Assembly (NCBI RefSeq): GCF_037126465.1
Contig: NW_026999297.1
Coordinates: 124,001 to 188,000, forward strand
From: Ornithodoros turicata
Lineage: Eukaryota; Arthropoda; Arachnida; Ixodida; Argasidae
Reading direction: 5' to 3'
Length of the DNA stretch: 64,000 bases
Of the stretch, positions 4,610 through 52,500 are shown in pieces; position 1 is the first letter of the stretch, and each line of letters starts with the position of its first letter. The position numbers and the translations under genes are program-made. Below the pieces are notes generated by a model. It saw only the letters and a list, made by a program, of their open reading frames with translations. It had not been told where the DNA came from and did not search any database.

Positions 4610-5264
4610 AGTCTGTCATTCTGCAGGCGGCGCTGTGCAATATCCATACGTACCTCACGCACCTTGGGATGGACCTTTCACCCGAAAAGTGTGTCGGGCT
4701 CCCTTTCACGCGCAAATCTATAGCCAATTTCCCTCTTTGGCTTTGTACAAAGAAGCTTGAGCCGGTACGCTTCCACCGCTTCCTTGGCGTGGTAATCGAC
4801 TCGGACTTGCGCTGGGCTCGGCACATTAAACACCTTGAAACTAAAGTGCAGCGATGGCTCCCGCAATTCAACATCTTTCTGGCTCAGGATGGGGCTGTGA
4901 TCAGCGTTCTCTGCTCGCGGTTCACGCGGCATTGGTGAGGGCGACTGTGCTTTACAGCCTTCCTATTCTGCACAAGATATCAACAACTTCATTAAATACA
5001 CTTCGGTCCCTGTTTGCTTGAAGCCTTCGTCGATGCCTCGGAGTTCCAAGAATGGCTGAAACACGGCATGTACTGGCTGAAGCTGGTGAGCTCCCGACTG
5101 AGGTTCTCCGTGAACGTGAAACGGCTCGGCACTTCCTCCGTTTGCGTGCCCACATTCCCCGCCACCCGCTCCTTTGGAAAATTCGATACCGCCCTGAAAG
5201 CGACTTCTATCGAGTAGCGCAGAGTCTTACTTACACGCCAGACTCTTACTGGCTTCATAACTAA
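4610..5264 (+). pseudogene. LINE reverse transcriptase C-terminal part
   Basis: The frame beginning near 4619 reads AALCNIHTYLTHLGMDLSPE and continues into a segment with FLGVVIDSDLRWARHI, typical of the end of the RT palm and the start of the thumb in RNase H-type LINEs. The frame breaks near 4930, where ALVRATVLYSLPILH is picked up in another frame. It resumes at about 5040 with CLGVPRMAETRHVLAEAGEL and runs to a stop at 5262-5264. The catalytic FADD-type motif and everything N-terminal to it are missing. Confidence 0.85.
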
Positions 5265-5319
5265 GGACACTATACCGCCGGAAGCCCCCTGGTCTCTACC
5301 GGCACCGCCCACTTTTGTA

Positions 5320-5775
5320 CGCCTTCCTAACCTTCTGGAAAGAAGAGATCAGGTCCCCCCTCAAGTCCTCCGACCCCATTTTCATGCTCTGGTAGACGAG
5401 AAGTTTTCTACGTTTACGGCAGCATATACCGATGGCGCATCCCGAAACAACAAGTCCGCCTCAGCATTCGTCATACCATCTGAAGGCGTAGTGCACGGAA
5501 GACGCCTTTCACATCCAACCTCCTCCACAGCTGCGGAACTCTATGCCATCCTTTTCTTTCTACAACACATCGCTGGTTTTAAACCGCGGGAATGGGCAGT
5601 CTTCACAGACTCCAAATCTGCACTTCAAGCAATTGAAAATTCCGTCATACGAGGCCCATCCGCACCCCTAGTCACAGATGTGTTAATGGCTTACCACACT
5701 ATCCACGCAGCAGGCCACAGGCTCGTTCTCCAGTGGGTTCCAGCCCATTGTGGTGTCGTGGGGAACGCAGGCCGA
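5320..5775 (+). pseudogene. LINE RNase H domain
   Basis: In one frame from about 5320 the peptide reaches AYTDGASRNN (first catalytic Asp, near 5430), then STAAELYAILFFLQ (Glu), then VFTDSKSALQAIE (second Asp) and VLQWVPAHCGVVGN. The fourth acidic residue (ADSAAEAALS) lies one frame over because of a 1-base shift near 5770. The D-E-D-D layout is that of retrotransposon RNase H. The domain would remove RNA from the RNA:DNA hybrid during retrotransposition. It is non-functional as it stands. Confidence 0.9.
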
Positions 5776-6286
5776 CAGCGCCGCAGAAGCAGCACTCTCG
5801 TATCGGAAACGGACCAGTATTGTTCTGCTGAGAGGAGACCGCCGTTCAATTCTCCGATGCCTAGTGACACCCCTGGCTTCCCGCCAATGGACAACCGACA
5901 TTCTTCCCCCCTCTATGTTGAACAGAGTTGATCCAACGCTCGCTTTCCGCATGCCACGAAACACCTCTCGTCAAGATGCTGCATTAATCCACCGAATGCG
6001 CCTCGATGTGGCCTCTACAGCTCAGTGGCGTTACCGCTTGAGACAAGTTGACTCTCCCACCTGCTGCCACTGTGGTGTGCTTGAGGATCTGGAGCATATT
6101 CTTCTTCATTGCTCCCACTACCAACCTTCCCGAACCACACTCTCCGAGTCTCTTCGTCAGCTGAACTCTCGCCCCTTCTCCCTATCGAAATTGCTTGGTC
6201 CCTGGCCTAATCCAGCCCAGCAACGCTCTGCGCTCAAAGCTCTTCTCACATTTCTGGACACCATCGGACTTCGATCGTTATTGTGA
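5776..6286 (+). pseudogene. LINE C-terminal region with zinc knuckle
   Basis: Open to a TGA at 6284-6286. It carries the end of RNase H and then a CCHCGVLEDLEHILLHC stretch, a CxxC-x(n)-H-x(4)-C type knuckle common after RNase H in this LINE group. The C-terminus is TFLDTIGLRSLL. In frame with the upstream parts only after correcting the 5770 shift. Confidence 0.85.
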
Positions 6287-12378: not shown

Positions 12379-15300
12379 GTACGTCCAATCAAGGTTCCTA
12401 GGCTATCTAGAGCAGCTGCATCTGTCACTATCACTGAAATGAGTTAGCTACAACCATTGATATAATAAAGGAAACCCTTACTAACACCCAAAGCGGATAC
12501 CAACGAGTGTCATAGCGTTCGTTTCCAGAGTGAACAAGTGGCTATATCCAGGGACTTCGTCCCTATGCTGCATACGGCCACGACGTTCATAGTATTATGG
12601 CAGGATTAACCTGGACGTCAACTTGGTTGATGCGCGCAATTGTGACAGCGTGATATGGCGCGACTTTTGCTGGTTTTCTCATTCTGATAATCGCATTCCT
12701 CTCTGCAAACAAACAAACAAAAAAGTACTTTTCGTTCAGACTGGACTTTCTGGAAACGAAACTTGACATGCGGTCCGACCGTCTCACCAACAAACTGGAA
12801 CTCCTCGATCGGGACCTTCAGGATTCTTTGGAAGACGTCCTGGAGAAAGTGACTAAAAGCGAGGAACAACGAGTCCGAATGCACAGTGACATTTCCCGGG
12901 CTCTCGAGGTCATCGATCGAACAGAAGTGACGCAGCGTCAACTGGAAGCAACCCTACGCTTCGACGTGCGGGACACACTCAAGTGGGCGGACGCAAAGCT
13001 GGATCTTTTCAACCACCAGCTACTGACGCAGAGAGACATCTTGAAGGAAGTTCAAGAGAAGATGGGAGTGAACGGCACTGTTACATCGGGTGCCTGTTCA
13101 CGAGAGGATGTTCCAACAGCAGAACAGGTAAGAGGCTGGTCATCATTGGAGCCTTTACGGCAACTACGGTGCGCCAATTCATGATTAAAAGCCAAAGAAC
13201 CGTATGGAAGAACAAAAAATATGTCAGGAGTAGCATTATAAGGCCGGCATATACGTTGTAAGATGTAAGTCACTGAAAAGGTTAGCCAGCTGTAGGACTC
13301 GAACCCACATCTTCTGGATTACCGGTCCAGGGCTCTACCAATTGAGCTAAGCTAACACGCCTTCTCAGCGACTTTCATCTTGACTTTCATCTTTCATCGT
13401 TAATTTCTTAGGCAACTTGAGGCCTTGTATGTGATTGTCCCTTCTTTGTTGTTCCAGCCTCAGAACATCAGTTCTCTCATGTTCAACATTTGCCGCTTGC
13501 GTCGATCCCTGTCGTATGAATGTGCGTATGAGTGTGCAACAATGTAAGAGTGAAAGGAGGATGAGTGAGAGAGAGTGACTGGTTTGTCCCTTCAGATGAC
13601 GCACCCTGGAAGTCGCTGCGAAGGCGTGTTAGCTTAGCTCAATCGGTAGAGCCCTGGACCGGTAATCCAGAAGATGTGGGTTCGAGTCCTACAAGTGGCT
13701 AACCTTTTCAGTGACTTTCAACCTTCATCGTTAATTTCTTAGGCAACTTGAGGCCTTGTATGTGATTGTCCCTTCTTTGTTGTTCCAGCCTCAGAACATC
13801 AGTTCTCTCGTGATATACGTTGTGTTTCACCTAACGCGGTGGTTCCCAAACATGTTTCGAGGCGTTGCGACTCGACCCACAAATTAAAAAAAAAGCCACA
13901 GTTGTGCCCGCTATTCTGCGTTACCAGGAAACCCGTGGCAGCAGACTCGGAGATTTATCATAAGTGCGCCTTAAAGGTACTGTAAAGCAGCACCGATCAA
14001 ATGTCATTTAGTGTGGCTATTCGATAGTCCAAGTCACCAGGACAAAAACTGCGCAAGTTTCATTCCAATCGACGGTGCAATTAATTAGAAAATTACAATT
14101 AAAGATTACGGGCAACACTGTACTAGGTATTCGATATGAATCCGTACTCCTGACACATACAGCGGCAACCGCATTGCATGCGTATAACACTGGGCCCGAC
14201 ATAAGAATCCACCATAAAATCCGCCCCTGCAGTCCACACAACGATCCACGTCTGAGGATAACGGATAAACGGATAAGCGAACTGAAATAAAATGCTGAGC
14301 CGTTGAAAAAAAAAAAAGTGTCAGACGTTCAAGAAGCCAGACAGCGTCGGGACGTGTTTGTTCACTGTGTGTTTCATGCTCACAACCATTATTTTGCGTC
14401 ATGTCATTCACTAGGATTTCCCGCAACTCGCAACACTGGAATGCTTGTTGTTATGGGCTACGCGGTGGATGTATTCTGACGGAGTTTATTTTTGGGAAAC
14501 TAGGTCCACTCTGCAACAGGATATGACTTGGGCGCGGCTGCAGTAAATACAAAAAAATAGAAACAGATTCCAAGTGTCCGTGCTGGTGAGCGTTTCCAGA
14601 AATCATCGTGAAGCAGCCGTAAGATTCCATCGTGAAGTGTTTTGAATACACACGATGGCCCAACTGCAAGTCCACGCCTAGCAACCGAGACCATTCTAGT
14701 CTCAGCTTTTTACACTTCGATACGTTGTAGTACGAGACGACGTTGCTTTCCTCGCGCGTCCTCATGTAGTTGCTTGAGCAGTGCCAAACACAACATTGCG
14801 TACCAGGCATCTTGGTGCAACGAGTGCCTTTTACCGAACAGGCAAAAGAACCGAAGGCGAGTAGTTCGTAGTACCAAAAGAACGATAGCGAGGCAGCGCC
14901 AGCGCGTTCGAAAGAGGCCGCGAACCCCGCGAACAGGAGGAGCGCGCAGGCGCAGTAGAGAAGTAGGGAGAGCCTCCATCGAACAGCGGCCAGCGCTGGG
15001 TTACTTCACAAAAAACACTGTTAACAGGGGCTTCAGAATGCATAGGTAAACAGGAAAACTAATAATATGGTTATTAAAATAGCGAAGTTCCGATGCAATA
15101 GTGTGTAATACAAATTTTCAGTGTTGCCCGCTGTACAGGGGGTTGTTTGACACTAGGCGTCGCACCGCTCCACTACGCCGCATTTTCGTGGCAAATTAAA
15201 AATATTTATAGCGCGTTGTCGGTCGTATGGTTCCACACATGGTATTTAGAAGCAACAAAGTCTCTAGTCACACCACCGGCATATCATGATTCAATGCACA

Positions 15301-21300: not shown

Positions 21301-24300
21301 CCAGTAGCAGAGGTTTGCACTCTCACGAGGGCGGGCGGGCGAGGGCCCTCACCTCACGATATTTGAGGTGAGGTGAGATGAGGGCCAATTTTTCTGGTGA
21401 TGTTTGAGGTGAGGTGTGGAAAATCTTCAAAAAGTTTTTGAGGTGAGGTGAGGAAAATTTTCAAGAAACATTTTGAGGTGAGGTAAGGAAAATCTTTTTT
21501 TTAATTTTGAGGTGAGGTGAGGAAAATTTCACAAAAAAATTTGAGGTGAGGTGAGGTGAGGTGAGGTGAGGATAACTTTATGAACGCGCACTTTATGAAA
21601 ACTTTTTCCGCGCGTACACGGGATATCTTTCCTTCTTTTTGCAGTTTCTGTCTCTCACCTGGGCGGGGACTGTCCTCCTCTCTCGACGGTGATACGCGCA
21701 ACTTTTACGGGTATAACAATCGTTCCACGAAGCGTTTTCTGTGATTGATTAGGCCAAATCTGCCAGGAAAGAAAAACAAAACGTTAGGTTGACTAAGCAA
21801 TTTCACGAGTTCATTGGCAGTCACTCAAAGCCAACGCGACTTTAATGATGATTCTTCAATCCCTGCGAATGTCACATCGAATACACAAATAGCTTGAAAA
21901 AATTGAGGTGAGGTGAGGAAAATTTCGAAAAAAATTGAGGTGAAGTGAGGGAAAGTCCCAAAAACTGCTTTAAGGTGAGGTGAAGAAAAATTTTCAAAAA
22001 AATTTGAGGTAAGGTGAGGTGAGGACAAATTTTCAAAACTGTTTTAGGTGAGGTGAGGGGAGGCACATTGTTCTCTCAGAAAATTGAGGTGAGGGCGAGG
22101 CTCGTGAGGAGAAACGCCCACCTCTGTCCAGTAGTGACGCAAAATTATCGATAGTCGTATGAGAATCCAACTATCGTTAGCACTATCGATAGTCGAGTGT
22201 CGATAGTACTATCGATAGTTGGCTGTCGGAAGACTACCGGGGAGCGGATATGATTATGCTTCACTCCTACAAGTTTTACAATACAGCTCAAAGCAGCTTT
22301 CCCTCCGACGTTGACGTTGAGCTTCTCATGTTACCCAAACCGGAAACCGCAAAAAATGTTCCAGGAAAAACTGTCTCCTGAGCGACATTCACTTTTGGTA
22401 CGCCTGGAATTGTTGCGAAATCCCCGATTGCAATATTGCCGCTCTTCAAGTCCTCGGACTCAAAATAAATACTAAAATACCTCACCACTTATTATGTGTT
22501 TTTACTTGGAAAGCTTGGATCACTTTCACCAATGATTTCGCGTAGAGTATACACTGCAATCAACTGTCACGTTTGTTGATACAACGTGCACATTTGGCTG
22601 GGATATTCTTATTTTGTTTCTTTCTCGTTATACTACTAAGAAGTATATCCTGCGTGACGTCACACTGACTGGTGTGCAATGAGAACTCCGGGATTTTAGG
22701 CCTGATGGCACAGCTATCCATTCAGGTTTGAGGGAATAAAGAGCACGCGTGGGGTAGCGGTTAGGATGATCGCCCTTCACGCTGGGAGGTGGCGCGGGAT
22801 CGAATCCAAGTTTTCCCGCAGACTTTCCAGACGGCGCACTTCGCCCTGAAGTTGGCCCTGGACGCATACTAACCCCCTGTCACCCTCCTTCCCGCTGTCC
22901 TCTGTCCACGCCTGTACACCGCGTACAGCAACAGTTGCTTCGCGGCGCTAACACGGAAAAACAGTTTCTCTGCTAATTAGCACAAATGTAAAGTGTCACA
23001 GAAAGGCGTACGCCGCACAGTTTCAACAAAGGAGAGGAGAGAAGATGTCATTCGGAATGACTAGGAGCGTGTCAAGTTATTTTTTTAAAGTGCGTGGATC
23101 CACGTGCAGGGTGATGCGTAAAAAGGAAAATAATATGCGGGAGGGGGGAATCAACAAAATTGATAGGCAAAAATGTATGTGAATATGTGTAGCGGTGTCA
23201 CGCGTTGCATATCGGGAGCCCCATGACTGTATAGGCCGCTTCAGTGCGAGAAACAACGAAATAAATGCACCAAAACTGCCCCTGGTCACCCACAGAGGCC
23301 CCTCTACAAAGAAATGCTATGTGTGAATAGTCATTTTAAAACGGAATTGAATACGAATAAATTAAGCGACTCGTTCAATAACCGCATCGGATACATATAC
23401 AGCATATGTTGGAATATGTATGGAAGTTGTACGGTATGTGTAAGTATATAGCTGATATAGCGCTCACTCTGTTTTATGCACTCAATGTGCCGGCCATACG
23501 TGTGCAGCTTCGGGACTATTCAAATATATTCGGTTTAGAAGAAACATCAATTCGATTCGGAATTGGAACATTCAATTTCATATTTGATTCGGAAATGGAA
23601 TAGGATATACGATTACTCGTTTCGGCGTTCCAAAAGTCCAAATATTCACACCGTCCTAGTAAAAAGTCAACGTCCGAAGTCAACCAGTCCACGCGAACCA
23701 AAAGTGAATGTTCCTCACGGGACATTTTTTTCGGGAACATTTTTTTCCGGGGGCATTTCTTCCTGGACCCGCTCAAGGATCCAGGAAGAAATGCCGCAAG
23801 GTCGTTTGATGCTCTCTGAACTGGATTGATTGCGGCATTGCAGTCTCATAACTGCGATGATTATGATGAGAGTCTTCTTTCGCTGCTCGCAGTGCATCGT
23901 CCATACATTATATAATAACTTGTGTTACACGTGATTTTGTTTTCGTTGTCACTGTGCCAGCGCGAAAACGAAGACGGAAACATCAGTATTGAGAACCGAG
24001 CTATCGATTAAGAAAAAAAGAAGAAGAGTACTATCGATGGTCGATTATCAAAAACCTAGCAATAGAACTATCGATAGTTTTTCGACACTGCAGATTGTTT
24101 TGAAATACTATCGATATAATATCGATAGTGAATTTATCGATAGTTTTGCATCACTAACTTGCACATTCGAGAGTTGTGGTGCTACAAGTTTGGCGTCTTT
24201 GACTGTAGGAAGAAGAGGTGCAGCTGTATGATCTCCTGGAGCTAATCATCCACGAGATGCGAAACCGATCCCTGAGCGACACTCAAAGGCTTAGCGATCA

Positions 24301-25035: not shown

Positions 25036-26322
25036 CGAGGTGTGTTTAAAGAGTAATGCGACTGCCCGCGTAGCGCATGGTCTGGCAACGTTGCAGACGC
25101 GCTTCCCACTTCGGTAAACATCTATTGGGGGCCCAGTAAGAATTCGTGCTTCACTGCATTCCGCTCGCGACGCGTTCTAGCGAAGTGTGTTTTGTTAGTG
25201 TGTCATGGAGACAAAGAAGAAGCGCTGTGTGATCAAGTTTTGCGCGAAACTCGCTGAAACCCCGACGGACACCTACAAAAAGTTAATGCAAGCGTACGAG
25301 GAGGAGGTCATAACAAGATCCCAAGGTTTCAGATGGCACAACGCATTTTTAGAGGGTCGTGAATGCGTGGAAGATGAACACCGATCAGGAAGACACACAG
25401 CACCTCAAAAACGCAAGAAAACCTGGAAAAAGTACGACCTCTGGTGATGTCTGATCGATGGATGACTGTGAGAGTGATAAGCAGTGAATTGGACTTGAAT
25501 GTTGCAGCAGTCCATGACATGTTAACCGAGGATTTGTCCATGCGGAAAGTGTGTGCCAAGATGGTACCCAAAAATCTGACACCTGAGCAAAAATATCATC
25601 GGAAAGCTGTCTGTCTGGATCTCCTGGACCGCACTAAAGTGGCGACGATTTCTTCAAAAACGTGATCACTGGTGACGAATCCTGGATTTTTGAGTACGAC
25701 CCGGAGACCAAACGCCATAGTCAGGAGTGGCACACGTTAAGCTCACCACGCCTCAAAAAAGCAAGAATGAGCAAGTCCAGGATCAAAACAATGCTCATTT
25801 GCTTTTTGATAGAGAAGGGATAGTTCACAAGGAGTTTGTGCCCCCAGGACAGACTGTCAACCAGCAGTTCTACCCTGAATGTCTCGAGAGACTGAGGAGA
25901 AGAGTTGTTCGCGTGAGACCGGGCATTGCTTAAAGTTGGATGCTGCATCACGACAATGCTCCTTGTCACACAGCACTCTCTGTCACCCAATTTCTGACAC
26001 AAAAAGGGATGTCAGTGGTACTTCAGCCCCCACCTCCACTAATCTGTCCCCGTGCAACTTTTTTTCTGTTCCCCAAACTGAAGAGTCACCTCAAGGGGCG
26101 CCATCTTGGTACTGTCGATATCATTCAGAAGACCGTAACGGACCAACTGAAAGCAATTCTGCTTGTTGACTTCCAGCACTGCTACCAAGAGTGGGGACAA
26201 CGTCTCCACCGATGTGTGGCTTCCCAAGGGAACTATTTCGAAGGTGACAATGTCGATTTGTATATAATAAATAAATACATTGGTTTATTGAAGCAGTCGC
26301 ATTACCTTTTAAACACACCTAG
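25036..26322 (+). mobile_element. Mariner-type transposon, inactive
   Basis: A Tc1/mariner (mariner group) element of 1.29 kb. The left end cgaggtgtgtttaaagagta is preceded by TA (25034-25035). The right end is its imperfect inverse (accttttaaacacacctag), so the TIRs are about 28 bp. The transposase on the + strand is split over several frames. The right-hand TA is no longer evident. Confidence 0.9.
25205..26255 (+). pseudogene. Mariner transposase pseudogene
   Basis: The start is METKKKRCVIKFCAKLAETP, the paired-type DNA-binding N-terminus. A frameshift near 25405 precedes the segment with MSDRWMTVRVISSEL and VCAKMVPKNLTPEQK. A second shift near 25645 precedes VITGDESWIFEYD, which contains the first catalytic Asp. 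Further breaks occur at about 25720, 25800 and an in-frame stop at 25931-25933. LHHDNAPCH carries the second Asp. The third Asp region (normally SPCDFF) reads SPCNFF in one frame and is displaced in the other. The enzyme would cut and paste the element at TA sites; this copy cannot. Confidence 0.9.
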
Positions 26323-26342
26323 AAGCTTTTAACATATATATA

Positions 26343-27098
26343 CAGGGTGTTTCAGTTAAATCCCCGGGCTAAATAATTCGCGAACCGGTGCACCAATCGA
26401 ATAACTTTCTTTTTTACAAGTATCTGTCCAATACCGCCTACAAGATGCGCACCGCGTGAATGAGCGGGAGGCGCTCATTATTTAAATAAAAATGCAAATG
26501 AGTTTCGTAAAAAAGCGTAACTTCTAAAGCAGGGCGCTGTCGGTATTAAAATGGGTACTACCCCTTTTGGGACCTTCAGTGGACACCTTTCAGAGAAAAA
26601 TCTGCCACCGAAGCGGGTCATTTGTTGCAGTAATTAATTGGTTTCGGTTTACGTATTTTTGTCGCGGCTGGTCGCGGCGAAGCGCAAAAAGACGCTCTTT
26701 CACTCCCTTATCCATCAATGAATTACGTCCTTACACCAATGAATTACGTCCTTTTGCGTTTCGCCGCGACCAGCCGCGACAAAAATACGTAAACCGAAAC
26801 CAATTAATTACTGCAACAAATGACCCGCTTCGGTGGCAGATTTTTCTCTGAAAGGTGTCCACTGAAGGTCCCAAAAGGGGTAGTACCCATTTTAATACCG
26901 ACAGCGCCCTGCTTTAGAAGTTACGCTTTTTTACGAAACTCATTTGCATTTTTATTTAAATAATGAGCGCCTCCCGCTCATTCACGCGGTGCGCATCTTG
27001 TAGGCGGTATTGGACAGATACTTGTAAAAAAGAAAGTTATTCGATTGGTGCACCGGTTCGCGAATTATTTAGCCCGGGGATTTAACTGAAACACCCTG
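26343..27098. mobile_element. Palindrome I: foldback element
   Basis: Arms 26343-26694 and 26747-27098 (352 bp each) are essentially perfect inverse copies around a 52-nt loop that itself contains a direct repeat (caatgaattacgtcctt). The outer ends are CAGGGTGTTTCAG, flanked by TATATA on the left and (TA)n on the right. It is a foldback-type DNA element or a snap-back duplication of one. The 94-codon frame inside is only the palindrome. Confidence 0.85.
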
Positions 27099-27231
27099 TA
27101 TATATATATATATATATATATAATGCAGGAAAAAAAGCCATTAAAGAAACAAATAAATGATACTAGACGTGTTTGAAATTCAAACTTACAGATTAATATG
27201 GCTTCTATGGCTGCACGCAGAGAAACAGATA
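27099..27231. repeat. (TA)n tract and spacer between palindromes
   Basis: A (TA)n run at 27099-27122, then about 110 bp of spacer, including tttgaaattcaaac and ggctgcacg. The latter also occurs in the 236-bp ribozyme unit. Confidence 0.6.
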
Positions 27232-27247
27232 CTCATGGAACGATGCG

Positions 27248-27306
27248 GCAGCACCAGAGGACACGTGTTTCGCCGTGTTTGCGGCTCATCGGCCCTGGGT
27301 AGCTGC
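27248..27306 (-). ncRNA. Hammerhead-like fold, family 2 (-)
   Basis: Mirror copy of the 27378-27436 fold in the left arm of palindrome II, read on the - strand. It has the same stems, the same GUC triplet and the same U4-to-C change. Confidence 0.78.
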
Positions 27307-27377
27307 GCATCGTTCCGAATTGGCAAACCAGGGGTCGCTCGCTGAGTGACCCCTGGTTTGCCAATTCGGAACGATGC

Positions 27378-27436
27378 GCAGCTACCCAGGGCCGATGAGC
27401 CGCAAACACGGCGAAACACGTGTCCTCTGGTGCTGC
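27378..27436 (+). ncRNA. Hammerhead-like fold, family 2 (+)
   Basis: Stem I is GCAGC (27378) with GCUGC (27432) plus CCAGGG (27386) with CUCUGG (27425), with an internal loop between. The core is CCGAUGA (27392-27398). Stem II is GCCG with CGGC around loop CAAACA. GAAAC (27413), a 4-nt loop ACGU and the GUC triplet (27422-27424) follow. Every element of a minimal type I hammerhead is in place except that the normally invariant U4 is C, which should cut activity strongly. Confidence 0.78.
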
Positions 27437-27451
27437 CGCATCGTTCCATGA

Positions 27452-27485
<34 letters not shown>

Positions 27486-27557
27486 GGAAGGAAAATTAGC
27501 AGGAGCTCTTTGGCTGCACGTATAGCATATGTTTGTAAGTCAAACGTCGCCATGCCA

Positions 27558-27602
27558 GTACTGGACAGCTGTTTCGGCCTTCTTTGGCCTCATCAGCAGT
27601 AC
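27558..27602 (-). ncRNA. Hammerhead ribozyme 1 (-)
   Basis: Minimal type I hammerhead on the - strand, identical in layout to the + strand copy at 28288-28332: stem I GUACUG/CAGUAC, core CUGAUGA, stem II GGCC/GGCC, GAAAC, 4-nt loop, GUC cleavage triplet. Confidence 0.9.
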
Positions 27603-27793
27603 ACAGGCAGGCAACGTTTGAGCGGATGGCGTCAGAAGGTCACGTGGCACGTGATGCCTCCCGTCAGGGTGTCATAGGACACCTCTGAAAGCCCAGTGCA
27701 AAGCCAGTCAAGTGCATAAGGGGAAGGAAAATTAGCAGGAGCTCTTTGGCTGCACGTATAGCATATGTTTGTAAGTCAAACGTCGCCATGCCA

Positions 27794-27838
27794 GTACTGG
27801 ACAACTGTTTCGGCCTTCTTTGGCCTCATCAGCAGTAC
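27794..27838 (-). ncRNA. Hammerhead ribozyme 2 (-), loop variant
   Basis: As ribozyme 1, but the stem III loop reads AGUU instead of AGCU (plus strand gacaactg). All core and paired positions are unchanged. Confidence 0.9.
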
Positions 27839-28029
27839 ACAGGCAGGCAACGTTTGAGCGGATGGCGTCAGAAGGTCACGTGGCACGTGATGCCTCCCGT
27901 CAGGGTGTCATAGGACACCTCTGAAAGCCCAGTGCAAAGCCAGTCAAGTGCATAAGGGGAAGGAAAATTAGCAGGAGCTCTTTGGCTGCACGTATAGCAT
28001 ATGTTTGTAAGTCAAACGTCGCCATGCCA

Positions 28030-28074
28030 GTACTGGACAGCTGTTTCGGCCTTCTTTGGCCTCATCAGCAGTAC
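28030..28074 (-). ncRNA. Hammerhead ribozyme 3 (-)
   Basis: Third - strand copy, 236 bp after the second. Core, stems and GUC triplet are intact. Confidence 0.9.
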
Positions 28075-28287
28075 ACAGGCAGGCAACGTTTGAGCGGATG
28101 GCGTCAGAAGGTCACGTGGCACGTGATGCCTCCCGTCAGGGTGTCATAGGACACCTCTGAAAGCGGTGTGAAAGCGGTCTGAAAGGCTTTGCACTGGGCT
28201 TTCAGAGGTGTCCTATGACACCCTGACGGGAGGCATCACGTGCCACGTGACCTTCTGACGCCATCCGCTCAAACGTTGCCTGCCTGT

Positions 28288-28332
28288 GTACTGCTGATGA
28301 GGCCAAAGAAGGCCGAAACAGCTGTCCAGTAC
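28288..28332 (+). ncRNA. Hammerhead ribozyme 4 (+), reference copy
   Basis: Stem I is GUACUG (28288-28293) with CAGUAC (28327-28332), extended by UGCC (28281) with GGCA (28334) across a small internal loop. The core is CUGAUGA (28294-28300). Stem II is GGCC (28301) with GGCC (28311), loop AAAGAA. GAAAC is 28315-28319. Stem III is the 2-bp AC/GU pair closed by loop AGCU. The GUC triplet ends at 28326, so cleavage is predicted between 28326 and 28327. All conserved core positions (C3 to A9, G12 to A14, U16.1, C17) are present. Such short stem III forms are known from Penelope elements and animal retrozymes and act best as tandem dimers, which the array would provide. Confidence 0.92.
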
Positions 28333-28523
28333 TGGCATGGCGACGTTTGACTTACAAACATATGCTATACGTGCAGCCAAAGAGCTCCTGCTAATTTTCC
28401 TTCCCCTTATGCACTTGACTGGCTTTGCACTGGGCTTTCAGAGGTGTCCTATGACACCCTGACGGGAGGCATCACGTGCCACGTGACCTTCTGACGCCAT
28501 CCGCTCAAACGTTGCCTGCCTGT

Positions 28524-28568
28524 GTACTGCTGATGAGGCCAAAGAAGGCCGAAACAGCTGTCCAGTAC
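28524..28568 (+). ncRNA. Hammerhead ribozyme 5 (+)
   Basis: Copy of the 28288 ribozyme one period (236 bp) on; core and stems intact. Confidence 0.9.
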
Positions 28569-28759
28569 TGGCATGGCGACGTTTGACTTACAAACATATG
28601 CTATACGTGCAGCCAAAGAGCTCCTGCTAATTTTCCTTCCCCTTATGCACTTGACTGGCTTTGCACTGGGCTTTCAGAGGTGTCCTATGACACCCTGACG
28701 GGAGGCATCACGTGCCACGTGACCTTCTGACGCCATCCGCTCAAACGTTGCCTGCCTGT

Positions 28760-28804
28760 GTACTGCTGATGAGGCCAAAGAAGGCCGAAACAGCTGTCCA
28801 GTAC
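28760..28804 (+). ncRNA. Hammerhead ribozyme 6 (+)
   Basis: Copy of the 28288 ribozyme two periods on; core and stems intact. Confidence 0.9.
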
Positions 28805-28995
28805 TGGCATGGCGACGTTTGACTTACAAACATATGCTATACGTGCAGCCAAAGAGCTCCTGCTAATTTTCCTTCCCCTTATGCACTTGACTGGCTTTGC
28901 ACTGGGCTTTCAGAGGTGTCCTATGACACCCTGACGGGAGGCATCACGTGCCACGTGACCTTCTGACGCCATCCGCTCAAACGTTGCCTGCCTGT

Positions 28996-29040
28996 GTACT
29001 GCTGATGAGGCCAAAGAAGGCCGAAACAGCTGTCCAGTAC
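28996..29040 (+). ncRNA. Hammerhead ribozyme 7 (+)
   Basis: Copy of the 28288 ribozyme three periods on; core and stems intact. Confidence 0.9.
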
Positions 29041-29231
29041 TGGCATGGCGACGTTTGACTTACAAACATATGCTATACGTGCAGCCAAAGAGCTCCTGCT
29101 AATTTTCCTTCCCCTTATGCACTTGACTGGCTTTGCACTGGGCTTTCAGAGGTGTCCTATGACACCCTGACGGGAGGCATCACGTGCCACGTGACCTTCT
29201 GACGCCATCCGCTCAAACGTTGCCTGCCTGT

Positions 29232-29276
29232 GTACTGCTGATGAGGCCAAAGAAGGCCGAAACAGCTGTCCAGTAC
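29232..29276 (+). ncRNA. Hammerhead ribozyme 8 (+)
   Basis: Copy of the 28288 ribozyme four periods on; core and stems intact. Confidence 0.9.
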
Positions 29277-29467
29277 TGGCATGGCGACGTTTGACTTACA
29301 AACATATGCTATACGTGCAGCCAAAGAGCTCCTGCTAATTTTCCTTCCCCTTATGCACTTGACTGGCTTTGCACTGGGCTTTCAGAGGTGTCCTATGACA
29401 CCCTGACGGGAGGCATCACGTGCCACGTGACCTTCTGACGCCATCCGCTCAAACGTTGCCTGCCTGT

Positions 29468-29512
29468 GTACTGCTGATGAGGCCAAAGAAGGCCGAAACA
29501 GCTGTCCAGTAC
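29468..29512 (+). ncRNA. Hammerhead ribozyme 9 (+)
   Basis: Last copy, in the partial unit that ends the array at 29537. Core and stems are intact, and the stem I extension (GGCA) is also retained. Confidence 0.9.
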
Positions 29513-29627
29513 TGGCATGGCGACGTTTGACTTACAAATATATATATATATATCACCTTTTTCGAGATGAAACCAATTGAAATGTAGCATATGCTGAAGG
29601 GCACTCCTTAAGAGGGCAGCAGCAAAC

Positions 29628-44410: not shown

Positions 44411-46539
44411 TTAGTGAGCACCCTCTGCAGCCTCTCTGTTTCTAAGTCTGACATGGTGTTGTATCATCTTTGTGGCAAAAAAAGATAAGAAATTGGCTCG
44501 ACATGCTCCGCAACAAAACGGCTCATGACTGGTCCCTGTGAATGCACTTATAAGGCGTTCTTTTACTCCTTTCCTGTGTAGAACATTTGCAACCTCCAAT
44601 AAGAATATGTCTTCTAACTTGCAAAACCACGCAAACAATGCATCCGATGGGGCGCAAAGTCTACTGCCACAGCTATCTGATTCACTTTGCAAGTGAGTGC
44701 ATGAACTTTCTGGTCTTTGAAGTCCTTCGTCTGCAGCCTTCAACAAGTTTGGGCAGTTCGGGCATTGTGACTTCTGCAAGAAAGAGTGAACCAGGGACCC
44801 TGCGTAAGCGTACCGTGCATTAGCCTCAATAATGTAGTCTGGTTCCTGCACATCACGCATTCCATGTTCAGCCCCTATTTCTTCAGCTGCACACACCCCT
44901 TCAGAGACAGGCTCGCAAGGAGTGCTTGCAGCTGAGGAAACCGGCATGTGCAACAGCTCGTTTAGAAGTTCAGTCGCCTCGCAGTTCCCTCTGCTTGGAA
45001 GCCCTGTGAGGTTCCCTGCAAGGGAACACTTGAGGCCTGCAATGAACTCAAACGCGTTTGGTGTCTCATCACACCCGTGCATTTGCTGGAATTGACCAAA
45101 CATGTTTTCCACAGGGTCCAGGTTGAGCCTCCGTGTCAGCAGATGTTTAAAACCGAAATTTTGGCGAAGGTCTTCCCACAATGCAAGTACTGCACGAATT
45201 GTGACTTGCCACCCCGTAACTGTGGCAGGTTGCACGTCACTGTCGAATTTCCACTGTGCAATCCACTGTACTGCAGACTCTAGTAACTCCTTATGGTTGG
45301 TGAAATCGCTGATTGCAAACCTCATTTTTTTGTCATCACCCTGTCGAACGGATGAACTGTTTAAACAGTCAAACAGTACATCCATCTTGAGGAGGAAACC
45401 TGAAGTCTCAGTGGCTGCTGGATGCATACACCCCATGCTAATAAGGGCAGCGATCCCAGTGGAAACACTATCGCTCAGTACTTGTGTTGCAAGTTCCATC
45501 TTCGTGTGACTGGATTCTGTGGGGTTAATGTGGTTGTCTGTCAACTTAGGTGCCAGTCGGACCTTTAAGGGATGGTCGGATTCATGGAACTCTTTAATGA
45601 AGCTCCACTGAACTTTGTGTTGGGCATTTCCAACCTGGAGGTCATGTTTCAACAGCAGGTTCCGTGTAGCCTTCATTAAATGTACTGGATCAAAAATACA
45701 GTACACTTTCGACCCATCAACACAAAAATATGGTTTAGATGGGGAGACTTCAAGTTTGCTAGCCAATGCACAGTTGCTGGCACTCTGATCACAGACAACC
45801 ACTTTGACGAAAACATCCAATGAATGAAGCTGTTTAATCAAGCTTTGAACCAAATCATTCAGAACATCTGCTGACATGGAAGACCTTGAGAAAACATATG
45901 ACAAGGGCTGAACCCAAGGTTTCGTTAGCCCTGCGATCACTATAAGCAGTGCTGACTTTGCCATCTGAGAGTTCCTTTCTTTTCCAGTGTCTACAAAGCC
46001 ATAAACTGTGTCTGATCCAGAATCGTAATGTAGATGTTCCTTTATGGACATTTCACCAAATATCATTGCGCACGTGCGATCTTTTATTGGCAGTCCTTGG
46101 AGTCTTGTCTTAAGTCCTTGAAGGACCAAAGGCATGACTCCAGGTTCCAGATAAGTGTCTTCTAGCCAACTCCTCAGGGAACTCTCAGATGGCAATGACA
46201 GCATTCCACTAAAGTAGTGGTATGCCCTAGGGTACATGAAATGCAAGTTAAGAGCGTAGCGCCTAAGCTGGGGGGGCCACATCTGACCAAACCTGTTCAA
46301 AGGCTGCAGATAGAGCTGAACACGAAACAGACTGAGAGAACGTTTTGACAGATACCGTGATGCTGCATACACTATCTGACTTCTTGCGAGGCCCCCAAAA
46401 CGAACTGCTGCACGGCTTCGAGACAGCGCACGTCGTAGGCGATCCCTTGATACCTGAAGCTGATGAATCAGGGAGGATGATCGAGGCGTTCTTTGCCCGT
46501 GGAGACGTCTCCGCCTGTGGGTTGTACCAGACGTGGAGG
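44411..46539 (-). CDS. P-derived gene: transposase body exon
   Basis: 2129 nt, acceptor gattttatag, 708 codons, TAA at 44411-44413, no internal stops. Motifs in order: a Leu-rich N-terminal helix region (SSLIHQLQVSRDRLRRAL), FGEMSIKEHLHYDSGSDTVY (family form DEM; the Asp position is Gly, codon GGT at 46055-46057), VVCDQSASN (Asp at 45788), FDPVHLMKATRN (Asp at 45689), and LNLDPVENMFGQFQ (the Glu at 45107 fits the catalytic Glu). The C-terminus has CPNCPN and CCGAC pairs. The long open frame beside badly broken neighbours suggests retained coding function or a recent insertion. Confidence 0.87.
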
Positions 46540-49500
46540 CTATAAAATCCACAGCATAATGTTAATATTACAACATAAAACCATGATGCAAGAGGAACTC
46601 GATGCATTTTGAGCCTTGCTCAAATGTCATTGTAGGAGAATAAGGTTCAGTAACCAGGGTGTCTACCAGCCAGCAAAATTCAAATTCCCTCACTTTCCCA
46701 GGTTTTCCCTGACATATTCATTCCAATTTCCCAACCATACTTTATGTAGCAGGAATTTATATTAGCTCAAAATTTCCATAACTGTCAACGTTCTTCGATA
46801 AGAACAAACTTCTTTAATAGTATGAAGTAGACACTGGCTTGCATAACAAGTTGTAAACAGAAACGTTTCGACACCTATTCGGGCGTCATCGTCAGCACAG
46901 GAAAATGAAACGGGGGTTTAAAACGGGAATCCTTTTAAACCCTTGTAACAAACTGGTAAAGGCCCCTTGTGACTGTTACAGGCTTTTATCTCGCCATGAA
47001 TGTGCCAAGATTCGAGGAATTTTCTCACCCACTATCTGTGTTGAAAAACCAAGGTTGTCGCGTTGTCAAAACTGAAAGAATGTCCTGTTCTTAACACGTG
47101 ATCAACAAGTTCGGTGCGTTGATTCTTTGCTGATGGTTCTGTCACTTGTGCCTTGTGCTCATTCATTCTGGTGACCTTCTTCCTTGCAGTTTCCCCTACA
47201 TAGCATGTGTCGCATTGTTGACATTCCAGTTTGTATACAACCCCTGCTTCGTAAATGTGGGGCACAGGGTCCTTGGGATGGCACAGCATGTTACGTAATG
47301 TTTGATGGGGCTTGAAAGTGGTGACAATACCAAATTGCTTTAAAAGGCTTTGTGCCGACTCTGATAGGCCGACGACATTAGGAATGCATTTAATATTGTC
47401 AGGAGCAGGTCAGTTACCCGAGATGGAACACATTTTAGAGACCGTGTCTTTGATGAAACGCTCGGGGTAATGACACTTGGATATAATGTTAGTGGCTAAA
47501 AATTGCTCAGATTTCTTAGCTTGATACGTGCTAGGTATCTCGTCAGAACGATTAAAAAGGAACCTGATGGCAGCCCGCTTGTGTTCGGGCACACGGTCAG
47601 AGTAAAAATCTAAAACCGATCCATTATCACAGGGTTTACGATAGACGTTGGTGTTAATTGCACCTGAGTCACTACGTGGTACTAAAACATCAAGAAAAGG
47701 AAGCTGCGAATTCTCCTCTTCCTCTAGGGTAAACTGGATGTTGGGGGTGAACACTGTTGAGTTGCGATAACACCGTATCAGAAATGCTTCCGCACTCTCT
47801 TAATTGTAGAAGGCGCTGGACTAATCCTCGTTCCGATTTCTGCGTAGGATCAGCGGGTAGTTGGACAAAGCGAGATTTGTCCTGGAACAGTTCCTTCATT
47901 TTCCTGATGTATGCTTCCTTATCCATGACTACAGTACTTTTCCCTTTGTCCGATGGAAGTATCATGATGGTGCTATCCGCTCTCAGTTCTTGCAAGGCTT
48001 GCCTTTCGTTTCTTGTCAAGTTGTTTTGTGGTAGCTCCCATTTCTTCGAGATGACTCCCATGAGGCAGTTCCTAGCTAGGTTTACAGCACCAGTATTACT
48101 TTATGAAATGGAACTTCTCCTCGACCTCTGCTATGATGTCTCCGTGTGGTATTTTACTGCTAGTGGTGGCAAAGTTCAAACCTCTACCGAGAACAGTTTC
48201 TTGTTCCTTTGATAAGGTTTTGGAAGAGAGGTTTACGACTGCAGTGTTTCTTGCACGTGGAGGTACGTTAGGTGGATTCTAGCCACGAGGCACTATTTGC
48301 TGTACTTCCTTGCTAATGCAAATCCACGGGGTGTGTTCACCAGAGGTTCGCACCTGAGGGGTATTGGAGTTTTCCCTCTTCTTGAACATTCCATGTTGAA
48401 GAGAAGATGACACGTAAGACAGGCTAGACGCATGGCACAGTCACAGTTGGCACGTACAGCCTGTGTTTACTTCATACTGTTAAAGAAACATGTCTCCTGA
48501 CTTTTGGTCCATCTTCATAAGAACAAACGTCGGTGAATGTAACCTGACAACCTATGTCAAATGCATAGGTCTTGGACGGGACCTATGTATAAGTTCGAAT
48601 TAGCCGGAATTTCGAATTAATGAGGTTCGACTGTATAGTCGAAAGAGGGACCAAAGGGAGGAAGAGGGGGAGTTGGTGATAGTTCATGTCGCTACAATGC
48701 AGCACTCAGACGGGACGAAGGGCGGTCTCCTTGTTTTAACCGCCCTTCGTCCCGTCTGAGTGCTGCATTGTAGCGACATGAAATATAGTCGAGCTTTATA
48801 ATCCTATATTGAGAAATACTTTGGAAAGCATTTCAGAATACAGATTTTTGTACGACAATCTCTGCTGAGTGAATCTTTCCTTGGAGCAAGGATGCCTCAT
48901 GCTGTGCCTCAGTAATTATCTTTTGCCTCTTCTGTTTGGGGCCCCTTATGACAGATGCCACATTCCTTTTCCGTTTGCGGGCCTCAAACTCATCTTGCCT
49001 TTCCTTCCTTTTTCTATCAAAATCTTCCTTCCACTTTCTATTCGCACTGCAAACAGATTCGATCATCCTGTCCGTGATGCTTACTTTGTCCACAACACCA
49101 GCTGCCAGTACAGCATCATGAATCACTCTCTGTGCAATCAGTGATTCTTCTTTCAGGTTTTCAACAATACATTGATAGAAAGATCAGTTTCTACAGCTGC
49201 GTTGGTATGCGACATGCAATGGATGATTTCAACAAATGATTGGAGGTCCTTCTCTCCTTTACACAGCTCCAACCAAAGGATGTCCAGCCTTTGCTCTTTT
49301 CTGTCAAAATTCTTCAGGCATGTCTGTGTCGAGCTCAGCGAGCAGACTCTCACATATGACCGATGAGCTCTTTCTGCATGCAAGACTGTCAGCCACTGGT
49401 GCTTTGTGAGTGTTTCCAAAGCAAACACTTCTTATGGATGAAAGTTGGAAGTCACTGAAAAGGTTAGCCAGCTGCAGGACTTGAACCCACATCTTCTGGA

Positions 49501-52500
49501 TTACCGCCCCAGGGCTTCACCAATTGAGCTAAGCTAACACACCTCCCCAGCAACTTCCAAGGGTGTGTCATCTGAAGGGACAAACCAACCACTCTCTCAC
49601 TCATCCCCCTTTCACTCTTGCGTTTTTCTCACTCATACACATATTCATACGACGGGATCAACGGGAGCGGCATCTGTTGGACATGAGACAATTGACGTTC
49701 TGAGGCTGGAACACATGGAAAGGACAATATATACAAAGCCTCAAGTGCCTAAGAAATTAAATATTGAAAGATGGAAGTCACTGAAGTTAGTCACTGATGG
49801 AAGTTAGCTAAGCTAACACACATGTGTTAGCTTAGCTCAATTGGTAGAGCCCTGGAACGGTAATCCACAAGATGTGGGTTCGAGTCCTACAGCTGGCTAA
49901 CCTTTTTCAGTAACTTCCATCTTTCATCATTAATTTCTTAGGCACTTGAGGCTTTGTATGTATTTGTCTTTTCCATGTGTTCCAGCCTCGGAACATCAAT
50001 AGACTTCTGCCTGTTTATAAACAAATGATAGTTCATAGTGTTCAACAGCCCCACAAATTTGGTAGAACTGAACTACGCTCAAAGCTAGAGGTGAACTAGG
50101 TCGCGCACGAAAGCCACGGTCTTGAGAGGATTACGGTGGTACCGGAAAGGGACGCGACCTTCGGTCCTACTTTTCTTTCAATGGGAGGCAGCGAACAAGT
50201 ACCTGTTCGTCGAACCCAGCCCTCTCCTTCCGATTTGTTTCGGTTTCAGTCTGTCTACCAACGTCATGATGGCGTTTCTCTGGTAGAGGTCTATTGTCTC
50301 AACTTCTTACAGGTCTCCCTTAACAGCTGGCTGGATCCAGGCAGCCTGCACCTTGAACCAATCTATACTTCAAGCAGGACCTGTCTATTACCTTTTTCAC
50401 ACACGCTTTGATGAATAAAACAGTCACACTTGAAGCTGAGCAGAGTAAGCTTTGTCTGCTTTTTGATCTTGCAGAGCTCGGATTTGGCTGCAAGCCCAAT
50501 GTCAAACGCAGAAAAGGAAGTGATATTGTCACTCTGGTCCACACCAATTTCGAGCAAAGTGGAAATTCTATCCGCAGCATGTAGAATCCCCCCTTTAACG
50601 ATTCGGCTCAGCAGAGTCTGCAAAAGGCTCTCCAGTGCTGTTGCAAGAAATGGGAGCATCGGTCTGTCTATTTGAAATTCTGCCGAAAATGGTTCAAACT
50701 CCTCAGCAATCAACAACATCAATCCCGGTTTCACGGGCAGCATTTCGTCCACTACTGCCTTCTCCATTATTGTGAAGCTACTGCAGGTCAGCTTCTTACT
50801 CGATTTCTTTATGGAGTCCACATACTAAGCCAGGTTTGCATTCACTCCAAGTGCCCTAGCAATCACGTCCCTGTTCTCTAGCCACCTCACGGTGCAGAAC
50901 ATGAGCGGAAATACTGCGCTCCCAGTGATGCTCACATAATCTGCACGGCGAGCAGGAACGCACTTGAACAGATTGTGTGCACCGCGGAGGAGCACCACCG
51001 AGTCCCAGCGAGTTTCAGCATGTCCTGCCTTCAACACGCCATTGACAACGTGGAACCCGTAGCTTCCAATATCGAGAACACAGTAAGTGTCTCCCTATTC
51101 GCTGAGTAGTTCTTTGACGGACCTCTGGAATTGTATGTTTACATTTGGACCATCCATCAATATTTGTAGTAGTATCTTCTTGTCCTTTAGGCTTTCTGTA
51201 GCTTTCTTGAAAGAGCAGAAAAGTCCCTTGCATGGGTATGTCTGAGGAAACACGATGTCAAATACTGCGTTTTCATAACTGAATTATTTGAGTCCCAGTA
51301 TCTGACTAGTATACCTATCTGCTCCTTCCGATTCATCTTGTTTAGCAACTCGTCAAAAACGGCAACCAAGTATGGTACACTTGTAAGAGTAAAGAGCAGC
51401 TCGTTCTGGAAATAAGGAGCTAGACCATAACAGATTGTGTACCCAACCTTGTCCCTTCTGGACTGCATTTTTTAGGTGATATCACATCCAGGAAACATCA
51501 CGGGAAACAGTGCAGCAGATGCGGCAGCAGAACGGAAGGGTCATTATGGTGTTTAGGCACCACAGAATTTCGGCCTCACTGACACCTTCCTTCAACAAAA
51601 AACCTCCTAGTGTCACCACTGTAACACGTGTGCTCGCTGGAGACATGCTTCAAACGCTCGTGACAGCGGTGGTGTCTGGCACAGAGGTGTCCGCCGAGGT
51701 TGAACTCGAAGATGGCACGCTCGCTGTCTTCTTAAAACGCAACTCTACACTAACTTGAGAGTAGCTCTGTCCACACCTCATTATAAGCTTGATGCCTCTT
51801 ATTTTGCGTGTGATTAGCAGTCACACTGCAAGGCACACTGGGAGAACGTTTTTCTGCCCCCCCACACTGCGTGCTATTCGGGTCATTTTTGACAGGTCGA
51901 ATCCAAGTGGTGTGCTCCCAAACATCAGAATTTGTCCAGTCTGCATTGAAGGAGCACTTATGCGACGACATGTCAGCAAAACACAACTGTGCACATTCCA
52001 GAATGTCGCCAACAGCAACTGGACACGGGAAACATCATTCGAAACTGTACGACTGAACGCAGTAGTTTTGAAACACCGCAAAGAATGCAAACGCGGCGAG
52101 GGAGACTGCTGTCGGCAGATAAGCAAACAATGCTTGTCATGGGCAGTTGAGATTTCGATTCCTGTAGTTCACAAAACAGGAGCCATTACATCTTTATCAA
52201 GCTCTATTCTGTGCGAAGGTTGTCACCGCGTATCGGTCCACCATATTTCCTTTTCCCCAACATTTTTTAACTTTTCAACAAATTCCCTCACAATTCCATT
52301 ACTTTTCCAGTTGACTCGAAATTCCCTGACAATTCCCGGTTTTCCTGGCCGGTAGACACCCTGCTTTCTAGGGGTTCAGCCACAGCTGCAAAGATTAGGT
52401 TCAGCAGGTTACTCGGAGGAAGGATTCAGCATAAGAGAATAATCACGTTTACGAACTGCCCAGGAAGAAAAGAAAACCATAGCAAATAAAATGTGCTCGA

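Follow-up and report, generated by a model that had tools for sequence, protein, structure and literature searches.

Layout of the mirrored array

The window (the whole 64-kb stretch of Ornithodoros turicata DNA that was analysed) contains, between 27480 and 29538, a tandem array of 236-bp units in two arms that lie head to head and point outward from a shared centre, separated by 20 nt. The left arm (27480–28164, minus strand, 685 bp) holds about 2.9 units and three hammerheads, and the right arm (28185–29538, plus strand, 1354–1359 bp) about 5.7 units and six hammerheads. Tandem Repeats Finder gave a period of 236 in both arms (27480–28164 with 2.9 copies and 28185–29543 with 5.8 copies, each with 99% matches and 0% indels), and the arms are 99% complementary across 694 bp. 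The mirrored 236-bp tandem reported in the initial annotation is thereby confirmed, and the span given there, 27482–29537, is correct to 1–2 bases. The 20 nt at the centre (28165–28184) are a filler made of imperfect 11-bp repeats of the adjoining TCTGAAAGCGG, and the region 28156–28185 was returned by Tandem Repeats Finder with a period of 11 and 2.7 copies.

Positions in the unit are numbered from the base after the cleavage site (+1). The predicted monomer RNA corresponds to a 236-nt unit between successive cleavage sites, such as 28327–28562 on the plus strand; the G+C content of the unit is 52.97%. All five complete cleavage-to-cleavage units of the plus arm are identical, and one of the two complete units of the minus arm differs from them by a single base change, which is located in the stem III loop. 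BLAST at E 1 found no further copy of the unit elsewhere in the 64-kb window, and no open reading frame of at least 130 codons (stop to stop) overlaps 27124–29553, that is, either this array or the second mirrored element described below.

Some long-read libraries are known to produce long palindromes as an artefact, and an assembly or fold-back read artefact was considered. However, a fold-back artefact repeats its flank, while here the arms stop at different unit positions, their lengths differ (685 vs 1354–1359 bp), the outer flanks differ as well, and one base change is private to one arm, so we regard an artefact as very improbable.

The covariance-model search that the initial annotation had asked for (Rfam cmscan at gathering scores) placed the type I hammerhead RF00163 at three sites on the minus strand and six sites on the plus strand, exactly as had been claimed, with all nine above the curated score of 34 bits. 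Those of the left arm lie at 27558–27602 (outermost, 41.2 bits), 27794–27838 (middle, 38.5 bits, carrying the sole base change among the complete units) and 28030–28074 (innermost, 41.2 bits), while the first of the six in the right arm lies at 28288–28332 and the others start at 28524, 28760, 28996, 29232 and 29468 (the last being 29468–29512), each of the six with 41.2 bits; the E-value of the eight copies with this score is 4.5e-7. The catalytic positions are kept, as was also stated there, with the CTGATGA core, stem II GGCC/GGCC, GAAAC and GTC intact in nine of nine copies, and stem III of the main-array hammerheads does have the 2 bp ascribed to it. A motif scan of both strands of the 64 kb returned the same nine hammerheads and only two more, both in the adjacent palindrome.

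Sequence collections that do not consist of animal genomes were searched as well, so that negative results in them carry little weight. Neither an exact 32-mer taken from the ribozyme nor a 22-mer from the unit had matches in a viral contig collection, and a hammerhead pattern had none in a genome contig collection. A looser hammerhead pattern picked out nine stretches in the viral contigs, none of which had an Rfam match at the gathering score, and they were treated as chance.

Ribozyme fold and predicted circle

According to the predicted fold of the main copies, stem I comprises 6 bp near the core and, beyond a small internal loop, 4 + 11 bp split by a one-base bulge, stem II (GGCC/GGCC) is closed by a 6-nt loop, and stem III consists of 2 bp with the loop AGCU. 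For the isolated 89-nt domain the hammerhead fold has −36.2 kcal/mol vs −43.3 for the most stable fold, a competing one in which GCUG and CAGC are paired.

The stem III octamer ACAGCUGU is self-complementary in eight of the nine copies, the ninth being the one with the changed base, and since it equals its own reverse complement, two copies could share a long stem III. A shared long stem III formed via palindromic loops is reported for amphibian retrozymes in the available part of PMC7229834. A double (dimeric) hammerhead, which the octamer suggests, did not appear in the two-strand fold of the 57-nt core (−48.0 for the pair, −17.6 for the single strand); there, each strand retains the competing GCUG/CAGC pairing, and the strands join outside stem III. 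As a 236-nt circle, the RNA is predicted to have −83.0 kcal/mol vs −61.5 ± 5.0 for 200 shuffles (z = −4.3), with 62% of its bases paired, compared to the “above 70%” given in the accessible portion of PMC4918200.

The anatomy, with sense hammerheads in one arm for each direction, fits the earlier suggestion that transcription from either direction would give self-cleaving monomers, and judging by the sequence, pairing of the sense arm with the opposite arm could compete with the predicted self-cleavage. Because of the 694-bp inverted repeat, a transcript crossing the centre is predicted to form long double-stranded RNA, as was also proposed, and a transcript of this kind could yield it beside the self-cleaving RNA; this may bear on how the element is silenced.

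A second mirrored element and the TA tracts

Directly beside the main array, in the same TA stretch, there is a second, diverged mirrored hammerhead element at 27124–27455. Its palindrome (27229–27455) has 112-bp arms with one mismatch, 3 nt between them and one hammerhead per arm (27254–27298 on the minus strand and 27386–27430 on the plus strand, RF00163 with 35.5 bits each at a cut-off of 34), and the left arm extends outward in a “tail” of about 105 nt (27124–27228, minus strand) that reaches the next TA tract. A match of RF02275 (HH9) at this element, with 40 bits at a cut-off of 52, was rejected. The hammerhead differs in sequence from that of the main units and has the same design, namely a distal stem I of 11 bp, a 4-bp stem II closed by a 6-nt loop, a palindromic stem III octamer (ACACGUGU) and GTC. 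Its core reads CCGATGA, with U4 changed to C, in both arms, so the change was probably present already in the template. A U4-to-C change in the core would be expected to lower hammerhead cleavage.

The sequence CGTGCAGCC lies at +43 in the left-arm tail of the neighbour and at +44 in the main unit, and this 9-mer has nine sites in the window, all inside the two elements (30 shuffles gave a mean of 0.5). For the sequence downstream of the cleavage site, the local alignment of the main and neighbouring elements amounts to one 14-bp match with CGTGCAGCC as its core, whose score was reached by 3 of 300 base shuffles (+1 to +137) and by 1 of 500 (beyond the ribozyme), while for the hammerhead part the alignment score was reached by none of 300. 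We would call the two elements related, and not one family.

The outer ends of both elements coincide with TA tracts: (TA)12 at the left outer end of the neighbour (27099–27122), (TA)15 between the two mirrored elements (27453–27482) and (AT)8 at the right outer end of the main array (29538–29553). They are the only three TA tracts of at least six units in the 64 kb, and none was seen in 30 shuffled windows. To the left of the neighbour, a fold-back element (26334–27107, with 361-bp inverted arms) also ends in TA repeats, and as it shares the TA stretch with the two mirrored elements, one stretch seems to have been the target of several insertions. TA on both sides of the main array masks any target-site duplication, which in animal non-LTR retrozymes, when present, is longer than 4 bp.

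A putative Penelope-like gene and other features of the window

A decayed gene at 47035–48100 on the minus strand, 17.5 kb from the array, comprises three open pieces (N-terminal, downstream of the RT core and GIY-YIG-like), with the RT core apparently absent. The last of the three pieces gave a GIY-YIG match of 17.7 bits (E 0.0044), below the cut-off of 22.6, and Pfam returned no family for the other two; apart from this sub-cut-off match, the gene is putatively assigned as Penelope-like by its motifs. The motif scan of the window placed no hammerhead near it. It is possible that the gene is a relative of the enzyme that moved the array.

A P-element-like open reading frame at 44411–46561 has 24 homologues, of which 12 are named tick proteins, 3 other named arthropod proteins and 9 unnamed proteins, and the best two are from Ornithodoros turicata itself (77% and 68% identity). 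Matches to miRNA families at 28099–28263, 27311–27373, 48682–48783 and 53013–53155 were all below the cut-offs and were rejected, with the first three explained by strong hairpins.

Borders and the insertion mechanism

In unit positions, the outer ends of the main array are +32 (right) and +84 (left), and both run into (TA)n, merging with it through a few matching bases (short homology). The outer ends of the neighbour are +31 (right) and about +136 (left). Since the predicted hammerhead fold (stem I) ends at +23 in both elements, both right ends lie 8–9 nt past the folded ribozyme; the chance that any of the four end pairings falls within 1 nt in 236 is about 5% (our own arithmetic, post hoc). 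The inner ends of the main array are +95 (right arm) and +108 (left arm), 13 nt apart, and the left outer end (+84) misses collinearity with the right inner start (+95) on one RNA by 10 nt, where the chance of collinearity within 11 nt is about 10% (again our own post hoc arithmetic). Being nearly collinear, the arms can be read together as a single RNA, about 8.6 units long, whose 5' portion is inverted, which is the geometry of twin priming. The inversions that twin priming produces in LINE-1 likewise concern the 5' part and keep the two parts collinear on one RNA apart from a small gap or filler, although the LINE-1 RNA is single-copy and poly(A)-primed, and here it would be a multimeric ribozyme RNA in a TA tract.

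The TA borders, and the fold-back element with 361-bp arms directly to the left in the same TA stretch, could also speak for a TA-targeting, MITE-like DNA transposon that happens to carry hammerheads. However, in neither mirrored element does one outer end repeat the other in inverted form (+84/+32 in the main array and about +136/+31 in the neighbour), and therefore there would be no shared termini for a transposase, which makes this explanation hardly credible.

The sequence itself shows the units with their hammerheads, the two mirrored arms bordered by TA, the unevenness of the outer ends, the near-collinearity of the inner ends, the filler and the second mirrored element. From these features, seen in two insertions within one 64-kb window, we propose, with a probability of roughly 55%, that the array is an animal non-LTR retrozyme inserted by twin priming, in which both strands would start target-primed reverse transcription and a Penelope-like enzyme would probably carry it out. 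For the cleavage, the circles, the identity of the enzyme and the order of steps, we infer the following course. A tandem transcript would cut itself, perhaps via paired (dimeric) hammerheads, to 236-nt RNAs, which could be ligated to circles, and multimeric RNA would serve as the insertion template. A Penelope-like RT-endonuclease would open the TA tract, and both DNA strands would prime inside the RNA, one strand 32 nt past the cleavage site, just beyond the folded hammerhead, to copy 5.7 units, and the other at +84, further upstream, to copy 2.9 units to the 5' end of the template. The two cDNA ends would then be joined head to head with the stuttered filler. Several observations count against this explanation, namely the broken state of the putative Penelope-like gene, with the motif scan placing no hammerhead near it and with two of its three pieces outside any Pfam family, the 53% G+C and 62% paired bases, both off the ranges described for animal retrozymes, TA tracts that mask target-site duplications, the competing folds of the 89-nt domain and of the two-strand core, and the small number and post hoc nature of the border coincidences.

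The same order of units would follow from a DNA-level inversion of part of a one-orientation tandem array after its insertion, because an inversion of 2.9 units, reaching from the TA border to a break inside the array, is geometrically equal to twin priming, and repaired breaks usually carry a stuttered filler. On the other hand, one of the breaks must then hit the TA/array border exactly, and as the neighbour is mirrored too, the event would be required twice, so we consider inversion unlikely.

The centre of the neighbour, a near-perfect palindrome with a 3-nt gap, suits fold-back (self-primed) copying better than twin priming. In that case, a TA-primed cDNA, once completed to its end, would snap back and copy itself, with the second outer end joined by short TA homology. 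Self-priming on an antisense template is the explanation given in PMC3846280 for the head-to-head palindromes described there, and the inner starts of the main array (+95 and +108) are just 13 nt apart. However, the main centre is a 20-nt filler and not a perfect palindrome, and neither the outer ends at +32 and +31 in two families nor the +84/+95 collinearity is predicted by fold-back copying, which we thus regard as a doubtful, if plausible, explanation.

With regard to the twin-primed insertion of a retrozyme by a Penelope-like enzyme, the insertion of a neighbour with a changed core would agree with the in vitro finding that insertion needs no cleavage, as hammerhead mutants of PAc, a purified Penelope-like protein of Anolis, still insert in vitro (PMC11167929). 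To extend this tentatively, mirrored arrays might be a regular product of retrozyme movement, with a fixed priming site 8–9 nt past stem I, both strands of a simple-repeat target priming one multimeric RNA via a Penelope-like enzyme, and a one-sided tail; the neighbour, whose core is mutated and whose arms (about 217 and 112 nt) hold a single hammerhead each, would correspond, as a monomeric form, to the multimeric main array. If true, the neighbour would separate what the ribozyme is needed for (making multimer or circle templates) from what it is not needed for (permitting insertion).

The borders would be a physical trace of the insertion step, with a TA target, a fixed start distance from the ribozyme in two diverged families, a tail at one end and mirrored arms. 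Such borders give a testable clue to retrozyme mobility, and genome-wide counts in ticks would test the Penelope link.

Comparison with known systems

Animal retrozymes and the mirrored repeats of Penelope-like elements are already known. The retrozyme-like placement made in the initial annotation is supported and can be narrowed, since a putative retrozyme has been figured for Argas monolakensis, a soft tick of the family Argasidae like Ornithodoros (Fig. 7c and the Fig. 7 legend in the available part of PMC4918200). The statement that the mirrored form is undescribed has to be divided. It does not hold for the pLTRs of rotifer Penelope elements, as in the accessible sections of PMC3846280 an inverted arrangement of the pLTRs, one of which may bear a tail, is typical and head-to-head is the commonest inverted form. 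For retrozymes, no description of a mirrored array with these borders was found in the open-access literature, mostly sampled in part.

Published animal retrozyme repeats are 150–450 bp long with type I hammerheads, and a G+C content under 50% is given as their shared trait (PMC7229834, in the part available). Further traits of the class are the lack of LTR, PBS and PPT motifs and expression as self-cleaving RNA in linear and circular monomers. In common with the metazoan non-LTR retrozymes of Acropora, Mytilus and Ambystoma described there, the array has type I hammerheads in tandem units within 150–450 bp, no protein gene (here, no open reading frame of at least 130 codons) and a weak stem III; its predicted RNA is more stable than shuffled sequences, with a lower paired fraction (62%) than is given for retrozymes. 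Unlike them, as far as the available text goes, it has mirrored head-to-head arms, TA-tract borders and a 236-bp unit with 53% G+C, where low G+C is taken as usual and not as defining.

The reverse transcriptase that moves animal retrozymes is left open in the accessible part of PMC7761336, where Penelope-like elements or Terminons are proposed on the ground that they occur in the same genomes. The hammerheads of Terminons are said to expose the adjoining sequence for pairing with the target (PMC6431247, available portion), and the array similarly has a hammerhead beside a stretch that would pair with a simple-repeat target. Terminons differ in that their repeats are telomeric and they are giant and protein-coding, and the exposed-repeat structure is given, in the same portion of that paper, as unique to telomere-associated elements.

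Compared to Penelope-like elements (PMC3846280, in its accessible sections, and PAc, PMC11167929), the array shares head-to-head inverted repeats, a one-sided tail and AT-rich targets, and PAc in addition has its hammerhead upstream of the RT start. In contrast to these elements, no gene with RT plus GIY-YIG, as lies between their pLTRs, is present in either mirrored element (no open reading frame of at least 130 codons), each arm of the array holds several identical short units, the tail difference amounts to 52 nt (main array) or about 105 nt (neighbour) vs the 30–40 bp stated for Penelope-like elements in the available texts, and the joints show TA homology. The purified PAc cuts and extends both strands at AT-rich DNA in vitro. 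It begins copying at two neighbouring internal sites of the RNA, and this accounts for the optional “tail” of its genomic copies (PMC11167929). By our own subtraction of the positions given there (+111–118 and +26), its main start follows its hammerhead cut by approximately 85–92 nt. The sites where PAc starts share no homology with the DNA that is cut, whereas the array ends here merge into TA, a difference that counts against the proposed mechanism. The borders, with their one tailed end and mirrored arms, resemble the action of this purified Penelope-like enzyme on both strands (PMC11167929).

Other elements in the window

To the left of the two mirrored hammerhead elements lies a fold-back element (26334-27107), which is composed of two inverted arms of 361 bp, 99% complementary and spaced by 52 nt, and its termini (CAGGGTGTTTCAG.../...CTGAAACACCCTG) are located within the TA stretch, the region of TA tracts bordering both mirrored elements. 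It is immediately preceded by an ORF remnant (25934-26332), which we take to be mariner-like; a Pfam search of this remnant gave no match.

Tandem repeats are present at 1782-2250, where a diverged 51-bp repeat, also occurring in multiples of 102 and 153 bp, leaves more than 130 codons open on both strands, and at 21403-22058, where TGAGG-rich repeats of 34-39 bp form arrays. The hairpin at 48679-48786 (arms 2 x 48 bp, 98% complementary, 12-nt spacing) attracts miRNA matches below threshold in Rfam. Four tRNA matches were obtained from the same database, two per strand (13284-13356, 13628-13700, 49466-49538 and 49826-49898); the three with inspected alignments are near-identical and resemble the head regions of a SINE derived from a tRNA.

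Among the coding sequences, Pfam assigns an RNase H domain to the ORF at 5218-5931 (E 9e-10); this ORF may be the 3' portion of a non-LTR retrotransposon. A P-element-like transposase ORF (44411-46561, minus strand), open over 716 codons, comprises a TNP-like RNase H, a GTP-binding insertion and an HTH, with its closest relatives in Ornithodoros turicata. The Penelope-like gene at 47035-48100 (minus strand) is fragmented, with a GIY-YIG match below threshold and the RT core apparently missing; its pieces are a possible trace of the helper family, i.e., the Penelope-like enzymes proposed to have moved the main hammerhead array.
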